NCBI RefSeq assembly: GCF_013410455.1
Contig: NZ_JACCFW010000001.1
Location: forward strand, 2,062,929 to 2,126,928
Length of the DNA: 64,000 nucleotides
Source of the DNA: Allobranchiibius huperziae
Lineage (GTDB): Bacteria > Actinomycetota > Actinomycetes > Actinomycetales > Dermatophilaceae
Reading direction: 5' to 3'
Of this stretch, positions 2,345-18,620 are shown piece after piece (the first letter of the stretch is position 1; each line of letters starts with the position of its first letter). The translations under genes and the position numbers were made by a program. Below the pieces are notes generated by a model. It saw only the letters and a list, made by a program, of their open reading frames with translations, did no database searches and was not told the DNA's origin.

Positions 2345-4467
2345 TGACGACGACCACTCAGGACCAGACGCAGCAGCAGCTCATCCAGCCCGACGAGGTC
2401 GTCACCCACGCGCACGTGCGGGACCTCCAACTGCCGGGCGGTGCAGGCACGTTCGCGCTGATCACCCTCGACAACGGCTTCGATCACACCAAGCCCAGCA
2501 GCTTCGGCACGCAGGGCCTGCGCGAGCTGAGCGAGGCCCTCGACACGCTGCACGCGCGCGCCGAGGCCGGCGAGATCGTCGGCGCCGGCGTCACCGGCAA
2601 GCCGTTCATCTTCGCCGTCGGCGCCGACCTGACCGCGGTCCCGTCGATCACCACCCGGGAGCAGGCGTACGAGATCGCCCGCCTCGGGCATGCAACGTTC
2701 CAGAAGCTGTCGGACCTGCCCGTGCCGACCTTCGGCTTCATCAACGGCGCCTCGATGGGTGGCGGTGTCGAGTTGCCGCTCTACGCCGACTACCGCACGA
2801 TCTCCGCGGACGTTCCGGCGTACGCCACGCCGGAGTGCTTCCTCGGGCTCGTGCCCGGTTGGGGCGGCACGTACCTGCTGCCGCGGCTCATCGGGGTCCA
2901 GGACGCGCTCACGCTGATCGTGGCCAACCCCCTGGCCAACAACAAGATGATCGGCGGCAAGCAGGCGTTCAAGCTCGGTGTGGCCGACAGGCTGCTCGAG
3001 TCGGTGACCTTCCTGGAGGACTCGCTGGCCTTCGCCGCCGGTGTCATCGCCGGCACAGAACAGGTCGATCGCCGCGAGGTCGACCTGGACGAGACCGCAT
3101 GGGACGCCGCGATCGAGGCCGCCCGCGGCCAGGTCGAGGGTCGCACCGGCGGGGCCGCCCCGGCCCCGCTGCGGGCGCTGGAACTGATCAAGGCCGCGCG
3201 TACGGCGGATCGGGCCACGGCGTTCGAGGCCGAGAACGACGCCCTCGCCGACCTGATCATGAGCGACGAACTGCGCGCCGGGCTCTACGCGTTCGACCTG
3301 GTGCAGAAGCGGGCCAAGCGGCCGGCCGGCGCCCCGGACAAGTCGCTGGCCCGCAAGATCACCAAGGTCGGCGTCGTCGGCGCCGGTCTGATGGCCAGCC
3401 AGATGGCGCTGCTCTTCGCCCGTCGCCTGCAGGTGCCGGTCGTGCTGACCGACCTGGACCAGGCGCGCGTGGACAAGGGCGTCGCCTACTGCACCGATGA
3501 GATCGACAAGCTGCTCGCCAAGAGCCGGGTCTCCTCCGACAAGGCCAACCACCTGAAGTCGCTGATCTCCGGGTCGGTCACCAAGGAGGCCTTCGCCGAC
3601 GCCGACTTCGTCATCGAAGCCGTCTTCGAGGAGATGTCGGTCAAGAAGCAGGTGTTCGCCGAGGTCGAGGCCGTGGTCGGCGAGGAGTGCGTGCTCGCCA
3701 CGAACACCTCGTCGCTGTCGATCACCGAGATGGCCGCGGAACTGAAGCACCCCGAGCGCGTCGTGGGCTTCCACTTCTTCAACCCCGTCGCGATCATGCC
3801 GCTGCTGGAGATCATCCGCGGCGACGCGACCGACGACGCTACTCTCGCAACGGCGTTCGCCACGAGCAAGGGTCTGAAGAAGACCTCGATCCTGGTCAAG
3901 AACTCACCGTCGTTCGTGGTCAACCGGCTGCTCGGCCGCTTCATGGGCGAGTCGGGCGCGATCGTCGACGAGGGCACCCCGATCGAGGTGGTCGAGCGCG
4001 CGTTCGGCGGCCTCACGCCGATGCCGCCGTTCATGCTCATCAGCCTGGTCGGACCGGCCATCGCCCTGCACAACAGCGAGACCCTGGCCGGTGCGTTCCC
4101 CGACCGGTTCAAGGCATCGCCCAACCTGGCCAAGGTCGTCGAGGCGAAGATCGCCAGCTTCTACGGCGCGGACGGCACGATCGACCCGGCGGTGCTCGAC
4201 CTGTTCGAGGCCCCCGCCGATCCGACCGTTCTGACCGAGCAGGAGGTCCGCGACCGTGCGCTGTCAGCGCTGGGCGACGAGGTGCGCCGGATGCTCGACG
4301 AGGGCGTCGTCGCAGCCGCGCAGGACATCGACCTCGCGATGATCACCGGCGCCGGCTTCCCGTTCTGGAACGGCGGGGTCACGCCCCTGCTCGACCGGAC
4401 CGGGATCTCGCAGGAGGTCACCGGCGAGCGGTTCCTCGCCCCCGGCGTGGCCAGCGTCCCGGCGTAG
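2344..4467 (+). CDS. fadB: Enoyl-CoA hydratase / 3-hydroxyacyl-CoA dehydrogenase
   Basis: This 707-residue bifunctional beta-oxidation subunit hydrates trans-2-enoyl-CoA and oxidises the L-3-hydroxyacyl-CoA with NAD+. The N-terminal crotonase half (about 30-300) carries the NGASMGGGVELPL oxyanion-hole region. The dehydrogenase half begins near residue 338 with the Rossmann glycine motif VGVVGAGLMA and has the catalytic histidine in GFHFFNPV; a C-terminal dehydrogenase domain follows. The ATG overlaps the fadA stop. The same frame stays open upstream inside fadA, but homology begins only after this ATG. It is followed by two stem-loops, so the operon probably ends here. Confidence 0.96.
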   Translation: MTTTTQDQTQQQLIQPDEVVTHAHVRDLQLPGGAGTFALITLDNGFDHTKPSSFGTQGLRELSEALDTLHARAEAGEIVGAGVTGKPFIFAVGADLTAVPSITTREQAYEIARLGHATFQKLSDLPVPTFGFINGASMGGGVELPLYADYRTISADVPAYATPECFLGLVPGWGGTYLLPRLIGVQDALTLIVANPLANNKMIGGKQAFKLGVADRLLESVTFLEDSLAFAAGVIAGTEQVDRREVDLDETAWDAAIEAARGQVEGRTGGAAPAPLRALELIKAARTADRATAFEAENDALADLIMSDELRAGLYAFDLVQKRAKRPAGAPDKSLARKITKVGVVGAGLMASQMALLFARRLQVPVVLTDLDQARVDKGVAYCTDEIDKLLAKSRVSSDKANHLKSLISGSVTKEAFADADFVIEAVFEEMSVKKQVFAEVEAVVGEECVLATNTSSLSITEMAAELKHPERVVGFHFFNPVAIMPLLEIIRGDATDDATLATAFATSKGLKKTSILVKNSPSFVVNRLLGRFMGESGAIVDEGTPIEVVERAFGGLTPMPPFMLISLVGPAIALHNSETLAGAFPDRFKASPNLAKVVEAKIASFYGADGTIDPAVLDLFEAPADPTVLTEQEVRDRALSALGDEVRRMLDEGVVAAAQDIDLAMITGAGFPFWNGGVTPLLDRTGISQEVTGERFLAPGVASVPA

Positions 4468-4525: not shown

Positions 4526-4560
4526 TCGATGAGGCACTTGCTCCACCCCCGATCTTGCCG

Positions 4561-4597
4561 AACGCCGCCGACCCGCGACACGCCGGTCGGCGGCGTT
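4561..4597 (+). terminator. Second stem-loop between fadB and the murA-like gene
   Basis: A perfect 13-bp stem, AACGCCGCCGACC (4561-4573) with GGTCGGCGGCGTT (4585-4597), closes an 11-nt loop. It ends 8 nt before the promoter palindrome of the next gene and may insulate that promoter from fadAB read-through. Confidence 0.65.
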
Positions 4598-4604
4598 CGT
4601 CGTT

Positions 4605-4625
4605 ATCTCATATATGAGATACGCT
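4605..4625 (+). promoter_or_regulatory. Palindromic operator plus -10 box of the XRE-MurA gene
   Basis: ATCTCATATATGAGAT (4605-4620) is a perfect 16-bp palindrome. TACGCT at 4620-4625 matches TANNNT and ends 6 nt before the ATG at 4632, so the transcript would begin at the start codon. The palindrome fills the spacer directly upstream of the -10, where a repressor would block RNA polymerase. The obvious candidate ligand is the XRE domain of the encoded protein; that is an inference. Confidence 0.6.
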
Positions 4626-4631
4626 CGCCGT

Positions 4632-6161
4632 ATGACGGATGACTATCTGGACCGCGTCGGCACCCTCATTCGCGACGCCCGCCGCCAGCGCAAGCTGACC
4701 CAGTCCGAGCTCGCCGAATCCCTGCAGACCTCCCAGAGCGCGGTCGCCCGCATCGAACAGGGCAAGCAGAACCTCAGCCTGGAGATGGTCGCCCGGATCG
4801 GCGAGGCCCTCGACACCGAGGTCGTGCAGGTCGCCACCAACACCCCCCTCAACCTGCGCATCAAGGGCGGTCACAAGCTCTCCGGTGAGATCGACGTGCG
4901 CACCAGCAAGAACGCCGCCGTCGCCTGCCTGTGCGCCTCGCTGCTGAACAAGGGCAAGACCACGCTGCGCAACCTCGCGCGCATCGAGGAGGTCAACCGG
5001 ATCACCGAGGTGCTGAACTCGATCGGGGTCAAGACCCGGTGGCTGCCCGACTCCAGCGACCTGGAGATCACCCCGCCGGCCCGCCTCGACCTCGACGCGA
5101 TGGACGAGGCCGCGGCGCAGCGCACCCGCACGATCCTGATGTTCCTCGGCCCGCTGCTGCACGAGTTCGACGACTTCAAGCTGCCGAACGCCGGTGGCTG
5201 CGACCTCGGCGCCCGCACCGTGGAGCCGCACATGCACGCGCTGTCGGCGTTCGGTCTGCAGGTGGAGGCCAGCCACGGCTACTACGTCGCGACCGTCAAC
5301 CGCGAGGTCGCCGCCGGAGCGACGATCATCCTCACCGAGCGCGGCGACACCGTCACCGAGAACGCGCTCTTCGCCGCGGCGCGCTTCGACGGCACCACCA
5401 CCATCCGCAACGCCAGCCCCAACTACATGGTGCAGGACCTGTGCTTCTTCCTGGAGAAGCTCGGGGTGCGCATCGACGGCATCGGCACCACGACGTTGAT
5501 CGTGCACGGCCGCCCGCACATCGACCAGGACGTCGAATACCACCCGTCCGAGGACCCGATCGAGGCCATGTCGCTGCTCGCGGCCGCCGTCGTCACCACC
5601 TCGGAGATCACCATCAAGCGGGTGCCGATCGAGTTCATGGAGATCGAGCTGACCCTGCTGGCCAGCATGGGGATGAAGTACGACCTGTCGCCGGAGTACA
5701 CCTCCGCCAACGGCCGCACCCGCCTCGCCGACCTGCGCACCATTCCCGGCCCGCTGGTCGCGCCGAAGGACAAGATCCACCCGATGCCCTTCCCAGGCCT
5801 CAACATCGACAATCTGCCGTTCTTCGCCGCGATCGCCGCGGTCGCCGAGGGGCAGACGATGATCCACGACTGGGTCTACGAGAACCGCGCCATCTACCTC
5901 ACCGAGCTCACGCCGCTCGGCGCGAAGGTGCACCTGATGGACCCGCACCGGGTGCTCATCGAGGGACCGACCCGCTGGCGCGCCGCCGAGGTCATGTGCC
6001 CGCCCGCGCTGCGGCCGAGCATGGTCGTGCTGCTGGCGATGCTGGCCGCGCCGGGTGAGTCGGTGCTGCGCAACGTCTACGTCATCAACCGTGGCTACGA
6101 GGACATCTACACCCGGCTGAACGCGCTCGGCGCTGACATCCAGTCCTTCCGCGACATCTGA
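4632..6161 (+). CDS. XRE-type HTH fused to a MurA-like enolpyruvyl transferase
   Basis: A 509-residue fusion. Residues about 6-65 form a Cro/C1-type helix-turn-helix (QSELAESLQTSQSAVARIEQG). The rest is an EPSP-synthase/MurA barrel pair that transfers enolpyruvate from PEP to UDP-GlcNAc in peptidoglycan synthesis. The MurA lysine-asparagine pair (SKNAA) and the catalytic loop cysteine in GGCDLGAR (C190) are kept, so the enzyme may be active and fosfomycin-sensitive. I start at the second ATG because the upstream ATG (4614) lies inside the operator palindrome and before the predicted transcription start. Such HTH-MurA proteins are known in actinobacteria beside a canonical MurA; their role is unclear. 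Confidence 0.9.
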   Translation: MTDDYLDRVGTLIRDARRQRKLTQSELAESLQTSQSAVARIEQGKQNLSLEMVARIGEALDTEVVQVATNTPLNLRIKGGHKLSGEIDVRTSKNAAVACLCASLLNKGKTTLRNLARIEEVNRITEVLNSIGVKTRWLPDSSDLEITPPARLDLDAMDEAAAQRTRTILMFLGPLLHEFDDFKLPNAGGCDLGARTVEPHMHALSAFGLQVEASHGYYVATVNREVAAGATIILTERGDTVTENALFAAARFDGTTTIRNASPNYMVQDLCFFLEKLGVRIDGIGTTTLIVHGRPHIDQDVEYHPSEDPIEAMSLLAAAVVTTSEITIKRVPIEFMEIELTLLASMGMKYDLSPEYTSANGRTRLADLRTIPGPLVAPKDKIHPMPFPGLNIDNLPFFAAIAAVAEGQTMIHDWVYENRAIYLTELTPLGAKVHLMDPHRVLIEGPTRWRAAEVMCPPALRPSMVVLLAMLAAPGESVLRNVYVINRGYEDIYTRLNALGADIQSFRDI

Positions 6162-6172
6162 TCCGTGCCGCG

Positions 6173-6222
6173 CGGTTGTCAGCGGGTTCACGGCGCCGAT
6201 GCCACGAATCCGCTGACAACCG
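6173..6222. repeat. Intergenic inverted repeat, family 2, copy 1
   Basis: 13-bp arms CGGTTGTCAGCGG and CCGCTGACAACCG enclose an interior with its own weaker dyad. It begins 11 nt after the murA-like stop, so it probably works as a terminator. Related copies are at 18621-18666 and 63582-63631. Confidence 0.75.
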
Positions 6223-6268
6223 AGTGCATCACCGGGCGGATGAGACCAACGTGAGGGGACGCGCCGAC

Positions 6269-7145: not shown

Positions 7146-7174
7146 GAATGCGCAACGGTGGCAGCGTCGTTCGC

Positions 7175-7795
7175 ATGAGTGACGACGAGACACCCACGGT
7201 CAATCCTCTGGACGCCGACCTCGAGCGCCGACTGCTGCAACGGCGCACGCTGCTGCTCGGTGCAGCGCTGGAGGAGGCGAACGGCAATCGGCTCTGCAAC
7301 GCGCTGCTGCTGCTGGCCGCCGAGGACGCGCACGCCGACATCCGGCTGCTCATCAACTCCCCCGGCGGGTCGGTCTCGGCCATGCTCGCGATCCGCGACT
7401 GCATGCGGGTCATCCCGAACGACGTGAGCACGGTGGCGCTCGGCGCCGCGTACAGCGCGGGACAGTTCCTGCTGAGCTCGGGCACCAAGGGCAAGCGGTA
7501 CGCGCTGCCGCACGCGCAGGTGCTGCTGCACCAGGGTTCGGCCGGCTTCGGTGGCACCGCGATGGACATCGCGATCCAGGCCGGGCAGCTGCGGCACACC
7601 CGGGACACGGTGCTGTCGCTGGTCGCGCAGGACACCGGGCAGGACATCGCGACCGTCGAGCGCGACTCGCAGCGCGACCGCTTCTTCACGGCGCAGGAGG
7701 CCCTCGACTACGGATTCATCGACGCGATCGTGGATTCGATGGACCAGGTCGGACCCATCGCGTCCCGCACCGCCGGACTGGGGGCGACGCGATGA
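7175..7795 (+). CDS. ClpP-family serine protease, first of a tandem pair
   Basis: A 206-residue ClpP-type peptidase subunit, which forms a barrel-shaped protease with an AAA+ unfoldase in the cytosol. The catalytic triad is intact: S94 (AYSAGQF), H119 (LLHQG) and D168 (SQRDRF). The substrate-binding strand INSPGGSVSAM is present. I start at ATG 7175 (MSDDETP); an upstream in-frame ATG at 7148 adds nine residues without homology. It overlaps the second clpP by 4 nt (ATGA). Both subunits are divergent from textbook ClpP1P2, and the PopR-like neighbour suggests the ClpP3/ClpP4-type pair of Streptomyces. Confidence 0.92.
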   Translation: MSDDETPTVNPLDADLERRLLQRRTLLLGAALEEANGNRLCNALLLLAAEDAHADIRLLINSPGGSVSAMLAIRDCMRVIPNDVSTVALGAAYSAGQFLLSSGTKGKRYALPHAQVLLHQGSAGFGGTAMDIAIQAGQLRHTRDTVLSLVAQDTGQDIATVERDSQRDRFFTAQEALDYGFIDAIVDSMDQVGPIASRTAGLGATR

Positions 7796-8388
7796 GCTCC
7801 TACACGGTGCCCTACGTCACGACCCGCAGCGAACGCGGCGGTGACCGCACGGTCGACGTGTTCAGCCGGCTGCTCGCCGACCGGGTGGTCTATCTGGGCA
7901 CGGCGATCGACGACGGCGTCTCCAACGTGCTGATCGCGCAGTTGCTGCACCTGGAATCGGACAACCCGGACCAGCCGATCAACTTCTACATCAACTCCCC
8001 CGGCGGATCGATCTCGGCGATGCTCGCGATCTACGACGCCATGCAGTACGTCCGCGCGCGGGTCGAGACGACCTGCGTGGGTCAGGCCGTCTCCACGGCG
8101 GCCGTGCTGCTCGCCGGTGGCGCACCCGGATACCGGCAGATGCTGCCGCACGGCCGGGTGGTGCTGCATGCGCCGGCAGCCGAGGGACGTGGGGCGATCC
8201 CGGACCTGATCCTGGAGGCCGAGGAGGTCGACCGGGTGCGGACGCTCCTGGAGGAGTTGCTGGCGCAGCACACCGAGCACACGCCCGAGCAGGTCCGGCG
8301 CGACACCGAGCGGGATCTGGTGCTGACCGCCGACGCCGCCCGCGCGTACGGCGTGGTCGACACCGTCATCGCATCGCGGAAGGCATGA
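7792..8388 (+). CDS. ClpP-family serine protease, second of a tandem pair
   Basis: A 198-residue ClpP subunit, translationally coupled to the preceding one (ATGA overlap). It keeps the triad S101 (GQAVSTAA), H126 (VLHAP) and D175 (TERDLVL) and the INSPGGSISAM strand. Two unequal ClpP proteins encoded together normally assemble into one hetero-tetradecamer with two different rings. A regulator gene ends 15 nt downstream on the other strand. No Clp ATPase is encoded in this window, so the pair must borrow ClpX or ClpC. Confidence 0.93.
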   Translation: MSSYTVPYVTTRSERGGDRTVDVFSRLLADRVVYLGTAIDDGVSNVLIAQLLHLESDNPDQPINFYINSPGGSISAMLAIYDAMQYVRARVETTCVGQAVSTAAVLLAGGAPGYRQMLPHGRVVLHAPAAEGRGAIPDLILEAEEVDRVRTLLEELLAQHTEHTPEQVRRDTERDLVLTADAARAYGVVDTVIASRKA

Positions 8389-8403
8389 GTGCCGCAGGCG
8401 CGC

Positions 8404-8754
8404 TCAGGCGGCCAGGCGAAGCTCCGCCTGCTGAGACGTCGAGGTCGGTGCACCCGAGCCGGCGGCCAGCTGGTCGCGCACGCGCGAGGTCAGGTCGAGC
8501 AGCGTCAGGTCGAGTGCTCCGCCGATGGCCGCCAACATCTCCGACGACGGCTCCTTGCGACCCCGCTCGACCTCCGAGAGGTACTGCGGGGAGACCCCTG
8601 CGCGGCGGGCCACGTCCGCCAGCCGCTCGGCGCGGGCGGTCCGCTCCCGTCGCAGCTGCTCTCCCAGCAGCTGGCGCCACAGCGGCTCACCCCGGCGCGC
8701 CGCACGTCGCACGCGCGCGTCGTCGGGTGACGGGAAGGGCACCACACTTCGCAT
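8404..8754 (-). CDS. XRE-family regulator, PopR/ClgR type, with LAA tail
   Basis: This 116-residue protein has a helix-turn-helix at about 32-85 (ADVARRAGVSPQYLSEVERG), the distinctive SPQYLSEVERGRKEPSSE signature of the ClgR/PopR group that controls clp genes. It ends in RLAA, an ssrA-like C-terminus. In Streptomyces, PopR activates clpP3P4 and is degraded by ClpP through its terminal alanines, so this regulator is probably itself a Clp substrate. It faces the clpP pair tail to tail. A TAGTCT box ends 6 nt before the ATG, indicating a leaderless transcript. The PopR-versus-ClgR choice rests on context. Confidence 0.85.
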   Translation of the reverse strand: MRSVVPFPSPDDARVRRAARRGEPLWRQLLGEQLRRERTARAERLADVARRAGVSPQYLSEVERGRKEPSSEMLAAIGGALDLTLLDLTSRVRDQLAAGSGAPTSTSQQAELRLAA

Positions 8755-15823: not shown

Positions 15824-18493
<2,670 letters not shown>

Positions 18494-18537
18494 GCCGACT
18501 CCTTCGTCCTGTCCGTCGCGCCGTTCCGGCCGCATCT

Positions 18538-18565
18538 CATTTATCTTGACGTCAAGATAAGTCAA
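18538..18565 (-). promoter_or_regulatory. acnA promoter with perfect 20-bp palindrome
   Basis: TTATCTTGACGTCAAGATAA (18541-18560) is a perfect palindrome. On the minus strand a -35 TTGACT (18565-18560) and a -10-like TAAATG (18543-18538) flank it with a 16-bp spacer. TCTTGA..TCAAGA dyads are typical of MarR/UrtR-type sites; in Streptomyces, TamR of this group controls aconitase. Confidence 0.6.
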
Positions 18566-18620
18566 GCATATCCGCTGCGCTCCCGGCAGCAAAGGTCGAC
18601 CTAACGCGCACCCCGCCTCC

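Follow-up and report, generated by a model that had tools for sequence, protein, structure and literature searches.

BirA, PutA and NadR are trigger enzymes or enzyme-repressors, that is, enzymes that also bind DNA at the promoters of their own pathway. MurA, the UDP-GlcNAc enolpyruvyl transferase, catalyses the first committed step of peptidoglycan synthesis and is, at this entry point to peptidoglycan, the target of fosfomycin. The stretch of DNA analysed here (64 kb; the window) encodes a MurA preceded by an XRE/Cro-type HTH domain, hereafter HTH-MurA, with a candidate palindromic operator in its own promoter (Table 1). HTH-MurA differs from BirA, PutA and NadR in belonging to a peptidoglycan step, in its XRE fold and in acting, apparently, on one main target, the promoter of its own gene. 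In build it resembles BzdR and BoxR, in which an XRE-type HTH likewise stands N-terminal to a metabolic enzyme domain. According to the available text of PMC3602430, BzdR joins an XRE HTH to a shikimate-kinase-like domain that has lost its activity, controls benzoate degradation genes and answers to benzoyl-CoA. HTH-MurA, in contrast, keeps its active-site residues and has its own gene as evident target; its C-terminal domain is of the EPSP_synthase/MurA type and not shikimate-kinase-like, which sets it outside the BzdR family, and its HTH matches the PRK08154 model weakly (34.5 bits, cut-off 204). The autorepressor HipB, with an operator given as TATCC-N8-GGATA in the accessible part of PMC3376134, shares with HTH-MurA the XRE fold, the arrangement of 5-bp arms around an 8-bp centre and the location of the site in its own promoter. 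HipB, however, is a small antitoxin with a toxin partner, whereas the neighbours of HTH-MurA are metabolic, in the window a 3-hydroxyacyl-CoA dehydrogenase fusion and a GDPD gene. A toxin-antitoxin reading, suggested by the HipB-like score of the HTH (51.8 bits, short of the 71.65-bit cut-off of TIGR03070 for HipB/Y4mF antitoxins), was ruled out by these neighbours.

An apparent orthologue, judged by synteny, is MurA2 (SCO5998) of Streptomyces coelicolor: an aconitase gene adjoins HTH-MurA in S. coelicoflavus (locus L048), and SCO5999 (AcnA) adjoins SCO5998 in the excerpts available of PMC12161575. In print SCO5998 is one of two MurAs of S. coelicolor; PMC8346170 reports a SigB-dependent promoter for it, PMC12161575 a predicted DmdR1 site, and the available portions of these two papers make no mention of an HTH operator. 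More generally, no account of the operator or of HTH-MurA autoregulation was found in openly licensed PMC papers. MurA is not named in the main text of a survey of XRE motifs, as far as the accessible text of PMC12565409 goes, and Table S1 of that survey (223 motif clusters) might hold the motif unnamed; the whole word MurA is absent from PMC4255298.

Table 1. Features of the HTH-MurA locus (positions in the window).
Feature	Position	Strand	Remarks
Strong G+C hairpin	4559..4599	+	-37.3 kcal/mol, z -6.3; just 5' of operator
Candidate operator TATCTCATATATGAGATA, 18-bp perfect palindrome	4604..4621	.	-28 to -11 of predicted +1
-10 box TACGCT (TANNNT)	4620..4625	+	Overlaps 3' end of operator, whose last TA forms the first bases of the box
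HTH-MurA gene, 509 aa	4632..6161	+	Predicted leaderless, ATG at predicted +1
XRE/Cro-type HTH domain, residues 13-63	4668..4820	+	PF01381 (HTH_3), E 3.6e-12, 46.6 bits, cut-off 23
Recognition helix, residues 35-42 (QSAVARIE)	4734..4757	+	Helix in structure model; residues 35, 36 and 39 vary with operator
Linker, residues 62-70	4815..4841	+	pLDDT <50
MurA (enolpyruvyl transferase) domain, residues 75-505	4854..6146	+	Fold match to solved MurAs
Codon of catalytic Cys190	5199..5201	+	
Strong hairpin 3' of HTH-MurA gene	6170..6225	+	-38.2 kcal/mol, z -5.5

The first-pass annotation of this DNA had described the gene as a fusion of an HTH domain with a MurA whose catalytic cysteine is intact, and both parts of that description were borne out. 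Pfam finds PF01381 (residues 13-63) followed by PF00275 (residues 78-495; 160.6 bits, cut-off 22.8), and Cys190 aligns with the cysteine of the GGC motif of solved MurAs and is a cysteine in all 191 full-length HTH-MurA proteins. The HTH_3 domain, together with an operator that is a full or near palindrome in 188 of 192 loci, places the protein in the XRE/Cro-type class, and its helices fall at residues 5-19, 24-31, 35-42 and 50-60 of the structure model, in which the linker that follows is probably flexible. The enzyme domain matches a MurA structure at E 1.4e-39 and passes the PRK09369 cut-off (334.1 against 297 bits). It shares with canonical MurA (TIGR01072) the fold and the catalytic Lys, Asn, Cys, Arg and Asp residues, and differs from it in the additional HTH, in having E and A at the positions of K48 and D369, and in a score below the equivalog cut-off (314.6 against 392.7 bits). 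An alternative ATG at 4614, the earlier start of the ORF finder, falls inside the palindrome; since an ATG stands at the equivalent place in just 32 of the 188 operator-bearing orthologous loci, the true start is most likely 4632.

The palindrome lies where it had been placed, at 4605-4620, and is longer than the 16 bp first given to it, since the flanking T4604 and A4621 also pair, for a total of 18 bp with arms TATCT/AGATA around an 8-bp centre. TATCTCATATATGAGATA is the sole match in the window at up to three mismatches (0.02 expected by chance) and the sole site in the 3.72-Mb genome at up to two. A TANNNT box at leaderless spacing after the palindrome had also been proposed, and TACGCT fits it, ending 6 nt 5' of the ATG; TANNNT occurs at the equivalent place in 179 of the 188 operator-bearing loci, and a start codon follows it after 6-8 nt in 170. 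TANNNT some 10-12 bp 5' of the start codon is a mark of leaderless actinobacterial genes in the available text of PMC3160421 and PMC8079986. We infer a transcription start at the ATG; transcription need not start there only, since a SigB-dependent promoter has been reported for SCO5998 (PMC8346170, available text). The hairpin 5' of the operator may terminate the beta-oxidation gene whose end is at 4467, and that 3' of HTH-MurA is a possible terminator too; the presence of strong hairpins on both flanks suggests that the gene is transcribed alone.

Conservation of the palindrome upstream of orthologues was analysed in a collection scan, which took the best 80 of 583 orthologous stretches and so favoured close relatives, together with extra loci from further genomes; duplicate removal reduced 215 HTH-bearing loci to 192. 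When the 18-mer was matched over 14 positions, 188 of these 192 HTH-MurA loci scored 11-14, and the remaining four scored 7-8, leaving a clean gap below 11. The proposal thereby withstood the check by orthologue promoters that the first-pass annotation had set for it. The operator-bearing loci span 12 family groups of the class sample. Column conservation was computed for the 116 operator-bearing loci other than 72 of Streptomyces type. Within the operator, 17 of 18 columns hold 0.7-2.0 bits, values that are inflated by the choice of each site as the best match; the T of the -10 box holds 1.55 bits, and every other column from 50 before to 14 after the operator at most 0.55 bits. Upstream regions of 28 MurA genes without HTH, including any windows shortened by a contig end, gave no score above 9 of 14, and a site common to non-HTH murA promoters was thus rejected for these 28 loci. 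Of 3422 other windows in the first 81 loci, 18 scored at least 11, mostly at an aconitase-side palindrome. Conservation across orthologues ruled out a chance or low-complexity palindrome. Only 12 of the 188 operators are perfect 18-bp palindromes as in the window, the others being near-palindromes. A3 is found in 29 and T16 in 28 of the 188, with both in nine; because these two positions vary largely independently, covariation across the dyad is weak when taken alone, and perfect dyad compensation was dropped as a stand-alone proof.

The aconitase-side palindromes deserve separate mention. In many Streptomyces loci a second palindrome, TATCTCGATGTCGAGATA, lies near the aconitase gene beside HTH-MurA; an operator of a neighbouring regulon was rejected as an account of our site, since the core of TATCTCGATGTCGAGATA differs and this palindrome accompanies the aconitase gene. 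In the 80 collection loci an aconitase piece was counted in 38 and the TATCTCGATGTCGAGATA palindrome in 41, as two separately counted sets. In the window the aconitase ORF (15824-18592, minus strand; aconitate hydratase by NCBIfam) carries at its start a perfect palindrome of its own, TATCTTGACGTCAAGATA, at 18542-18559. We take TATCTCGATGTCGAGATA and TATCTTGACGTCAAGATA to be possible sites of TamR, of the MarR family. Elsewhere in the window, positions 7148-8754 hold two adjacent clpP genes and then, convergent with them, a small gene of XRE type (8404-8754, minus strand). At E 1e-10 NCBIfam gives this small gene a single match, ClgR, which at 67.6 bits falls short of its 170-bit cut-off.

A search of the 393 genomes of the class sample detected HTH-MurA in 123; these fall into 12 family groups, and in many other groups of the sample the fusion was not seen. 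A sample of the whole phylum (296 genomes) gave 28 matches, of which just 16, all from the class, extend across the HTH in the alignment. The site in a strict form, AWCTCA-N4-TGAGWTA, occurred in 105 of the 123 class genomes with HTH-MurA against 17 of the 270 without it (cross-tabulated by hand), 10 of these 17 belonging to family f96; the reversed pattern, as a control, occurred in 11 of the 393 genomes (hand count). Of the 18 HTH-MurA genomes that gave no strict match, most carry a variant operator, two (G168, G541) have none, and two (G620, G674) were outside this comparison. Among the matches listed, almost all strict sites of HTH-MurA genomes lie at the gene's own promoter, and the strict operator usually occurs once per genome, at that place. 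An additional strict match lies elsewhere in at least six HTH-MurA genomes, such extra sites having been seen in six of seven genomes chosen for suggestive counts; a wider regulon was rejected, as the six extra sites each precede a different ORF (by longest downstream frames). Another core, AACGTT, is present in two of the six extra-site genomes and in two of three inspected genomes without HTH-MurA. Some further sites were noted. Locus L275 (genome G482) has a second strict, true-looking operator 1.16 kb 5' of the HTH-MurA operator, before another ORF, and loci L046, L052 and L081, of three Streptomyces genomes, have a second operator-like site, AATCTCATATCCGAGATA, about 146 bp 5' of the first codon. 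A different palindrome, ATCTCAACGTTGAGATA, appears in four genomes (L279, L281, L284, L292) and is probably the site of another regulator.

Variation in the HTH, together with the distribution of strict sites described above, points to HTH-MurA itself as the putative binder of the operator. Gln35, with which the predicted recognition helix begins, is present in 189 of the 191 full-length proteins, and the two exceptions, L111 and L202, are both operator-less. In the frame-split L130, also operator-less, the recognition helix is likewise replaced and Gln35 lost, so that loss of Gln35 is confined to three of the four loci that lack the operator. The fourth, L008, retains the helix and comes from a genome (G007) that carries a canonical MurA as well. 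Since L130 and L202 come from one genus group, this joint loss of helix and operator amounts to about two independent events. Helix variants at residues 36 and 39 are also associated with operator form: all six SQG helices go with the symmetric A3/T16 operator TAACTC...GAGTTA, one of them with a change in the first base, against 3 of 182 for the others. Residue 39 (T/G against others) set against A3/T16 gave a table of 8/1/1/106 in 116 of the 192 rows, the two exceptions being L207 and L212. On a MurA-domain tree of these 116 rows a dependent model beat an independent one (LR 34, p 7e-7), for a residue-39 trait that was picked after inspection of the data. A test of independent pairs gave two supported pairs (four on all branches), too few for significance, and none in the opposite direction. 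In 434 repressor we take the counterparts of residues 36 and 39 to be positions 29 and 32, which face the DNA.

This covariation bears on two other readings of the site. The palindrome might belong to another XRE regulator, with the HTH of HTH-MurA acting elsewhere or vestigial; further XRE-type genes are indeed present, among them the one at 8404-8754, and a strict match occurs in the 17 genomes without HTH-MurA counted above. We regard this as quite improbable, since changes in the helix residues track the site, as does their loss, and strict sites are much commoner where HTH-MurA is present. It is still less credible, to the point of being very improbable, that the palindrome is a mere promoter or structural element, kept for RNA polymerase or as a hairpin. 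Its overlap with the -10 box would agree with such a role, as would a weak fold as RNA (-5.4 kcal/mol); yet TANNNT alone marks leaderless actinobacterial promoters in the available text of PMC3160421, the palindrome covaries with a protein helix, and, lying 5' of the predicted start, it would not be transcribed.

The active-site residues K93, N94, C190, R195, D393, R419, R461 and R487 are kept in all 191 full-length proteins, and we take their equivalents in E. coli MurA to be K22, N23, C115, R120, D305, R331, R371 and R397. At the positions that we equate with K48 and D369 in E. coli MurA numbering, 188 of the 191 have E and all 191 have A, respectively, which, along with the score below the TIGR01072 cut-off, argues for a divergent MurA subfamily. 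A TIGR01072 search found no second MurA in the window's genome, a search that a MurA of unrelated sequence would escape; the other PF00275 protein of that genome is AroA (TIGR01356, 392.5 bits, cut-off 287). In a hand tally of 84 HTH-MurA genomes, which counts G168 despite its frame-split gene, leaves out G035 (MurA in two pieces, HTH not seen) and would likewise miss a MurA of unrelated sequence, HTH-MurA was the sole detected MurA in 45 and stood beside a canonical MurA in 39. Being the only detected MurA in the window's genome and in those 45, HTH-MurA is probably the housekeeping enzyme there; enzyme activity is probable, since no other protein detected in those genomes could supply the product. 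In G168 (L130/L203) the only detected MurA is split in frame, by a sequencing error or a true break, and was matched as two pieces. The two sampled genomes of the window's family that lack HTH-MurA (G117, G580) have two canonical MurAs each and no strict site, as if these had replaced it.

We therefore consider it likely that HTH-MurA combines a working MurA with its own dedicated regulator, which would repress its own gene through the operator. Altogether, the analysis confirmed the original observation and made it stronger than had been stated. The first-pass interpretation gained partial support: the fusion, the intact cysteine, the leaderless -10 box and the operator hold up, and coevolution of helix and operator favours binding by the protein itself, whereas coupling to UDP-GlcNAc/PEP supply would be one possible reading beside plain autorepression. 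Two HTH domains, presumably bound as a dimer, would occupy the 18-bp operator, which fills the space just 5' of the -10 box; since the operator shares the TA of that box, the bound dimer should exclude RNA polymerase and so block transcription. Repression rather than activation would agree both with this position and with the general behaviour of XRE autoregulators. Self-activation, with HTH-MurA in the -35/-10 spacer aiding RNA polymerase where the promoter has no clear -35, appears improbable: column conservation in the 116 loci did reveal no -35 consensus 5' of the operator, as such a role might have it, yet the site overlaps the -10 box, a classical repressor position, and genomes without operator and helix (G541, G022 and the frame-split G168) keep the HTH-MurA gene as their only detected MurA, so that the gene appears to work without the operator.

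Under autorepression, the gene would be off when enzyme is sufficient and on when it is scarce or otherwise engaged. Feedback by concentration is the simplest such device, and ligand sensing is possible. In a stronger form of the same explanation, compatible with autorepression and advanced here tentatively, at somewhat less than an even chance, HTH-MurA would be a ligand-gated trigger enzyme in which binding of UDP-GlcNAc, PEP or fosfomycin alters affinity for the operator, so that expression reports supply or inhibition. The union of conserved active-site residues with a DNA-binding domain that has its own operator speaks for it, and BzdR, which binds its effector benzoyl-CoA through the enzyme-like domain, offers a precedent (PMC3602430, available text). 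The low-confidence, probably flexible linker argues weakly against rigid allostery, and a ligand effect is not visible in sequence; with the HTH tethered by such a linker, a plain concentration-sensing autorepressor would explain the data equally well. More tentative still is a one-protein homeostat, in which HTH-MurA would sense its occupancy by UDP-GlcNAc, PEP or fosfomycin and tune its own leaderless transcription, a device kept in nearly all fusion-bearing lineages of the class and lost along with the helix where unneeded.

If autoregulation of this kind is true, cell-wall flux would be set by a built-in feedback loop in many actinobacteria with HTH-MurA as their only detected copy, and inhibitors could shift the level of their own target. 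HTH-MurA also offers a clean model of an enzyme gaining, retuning and losing a private operator.
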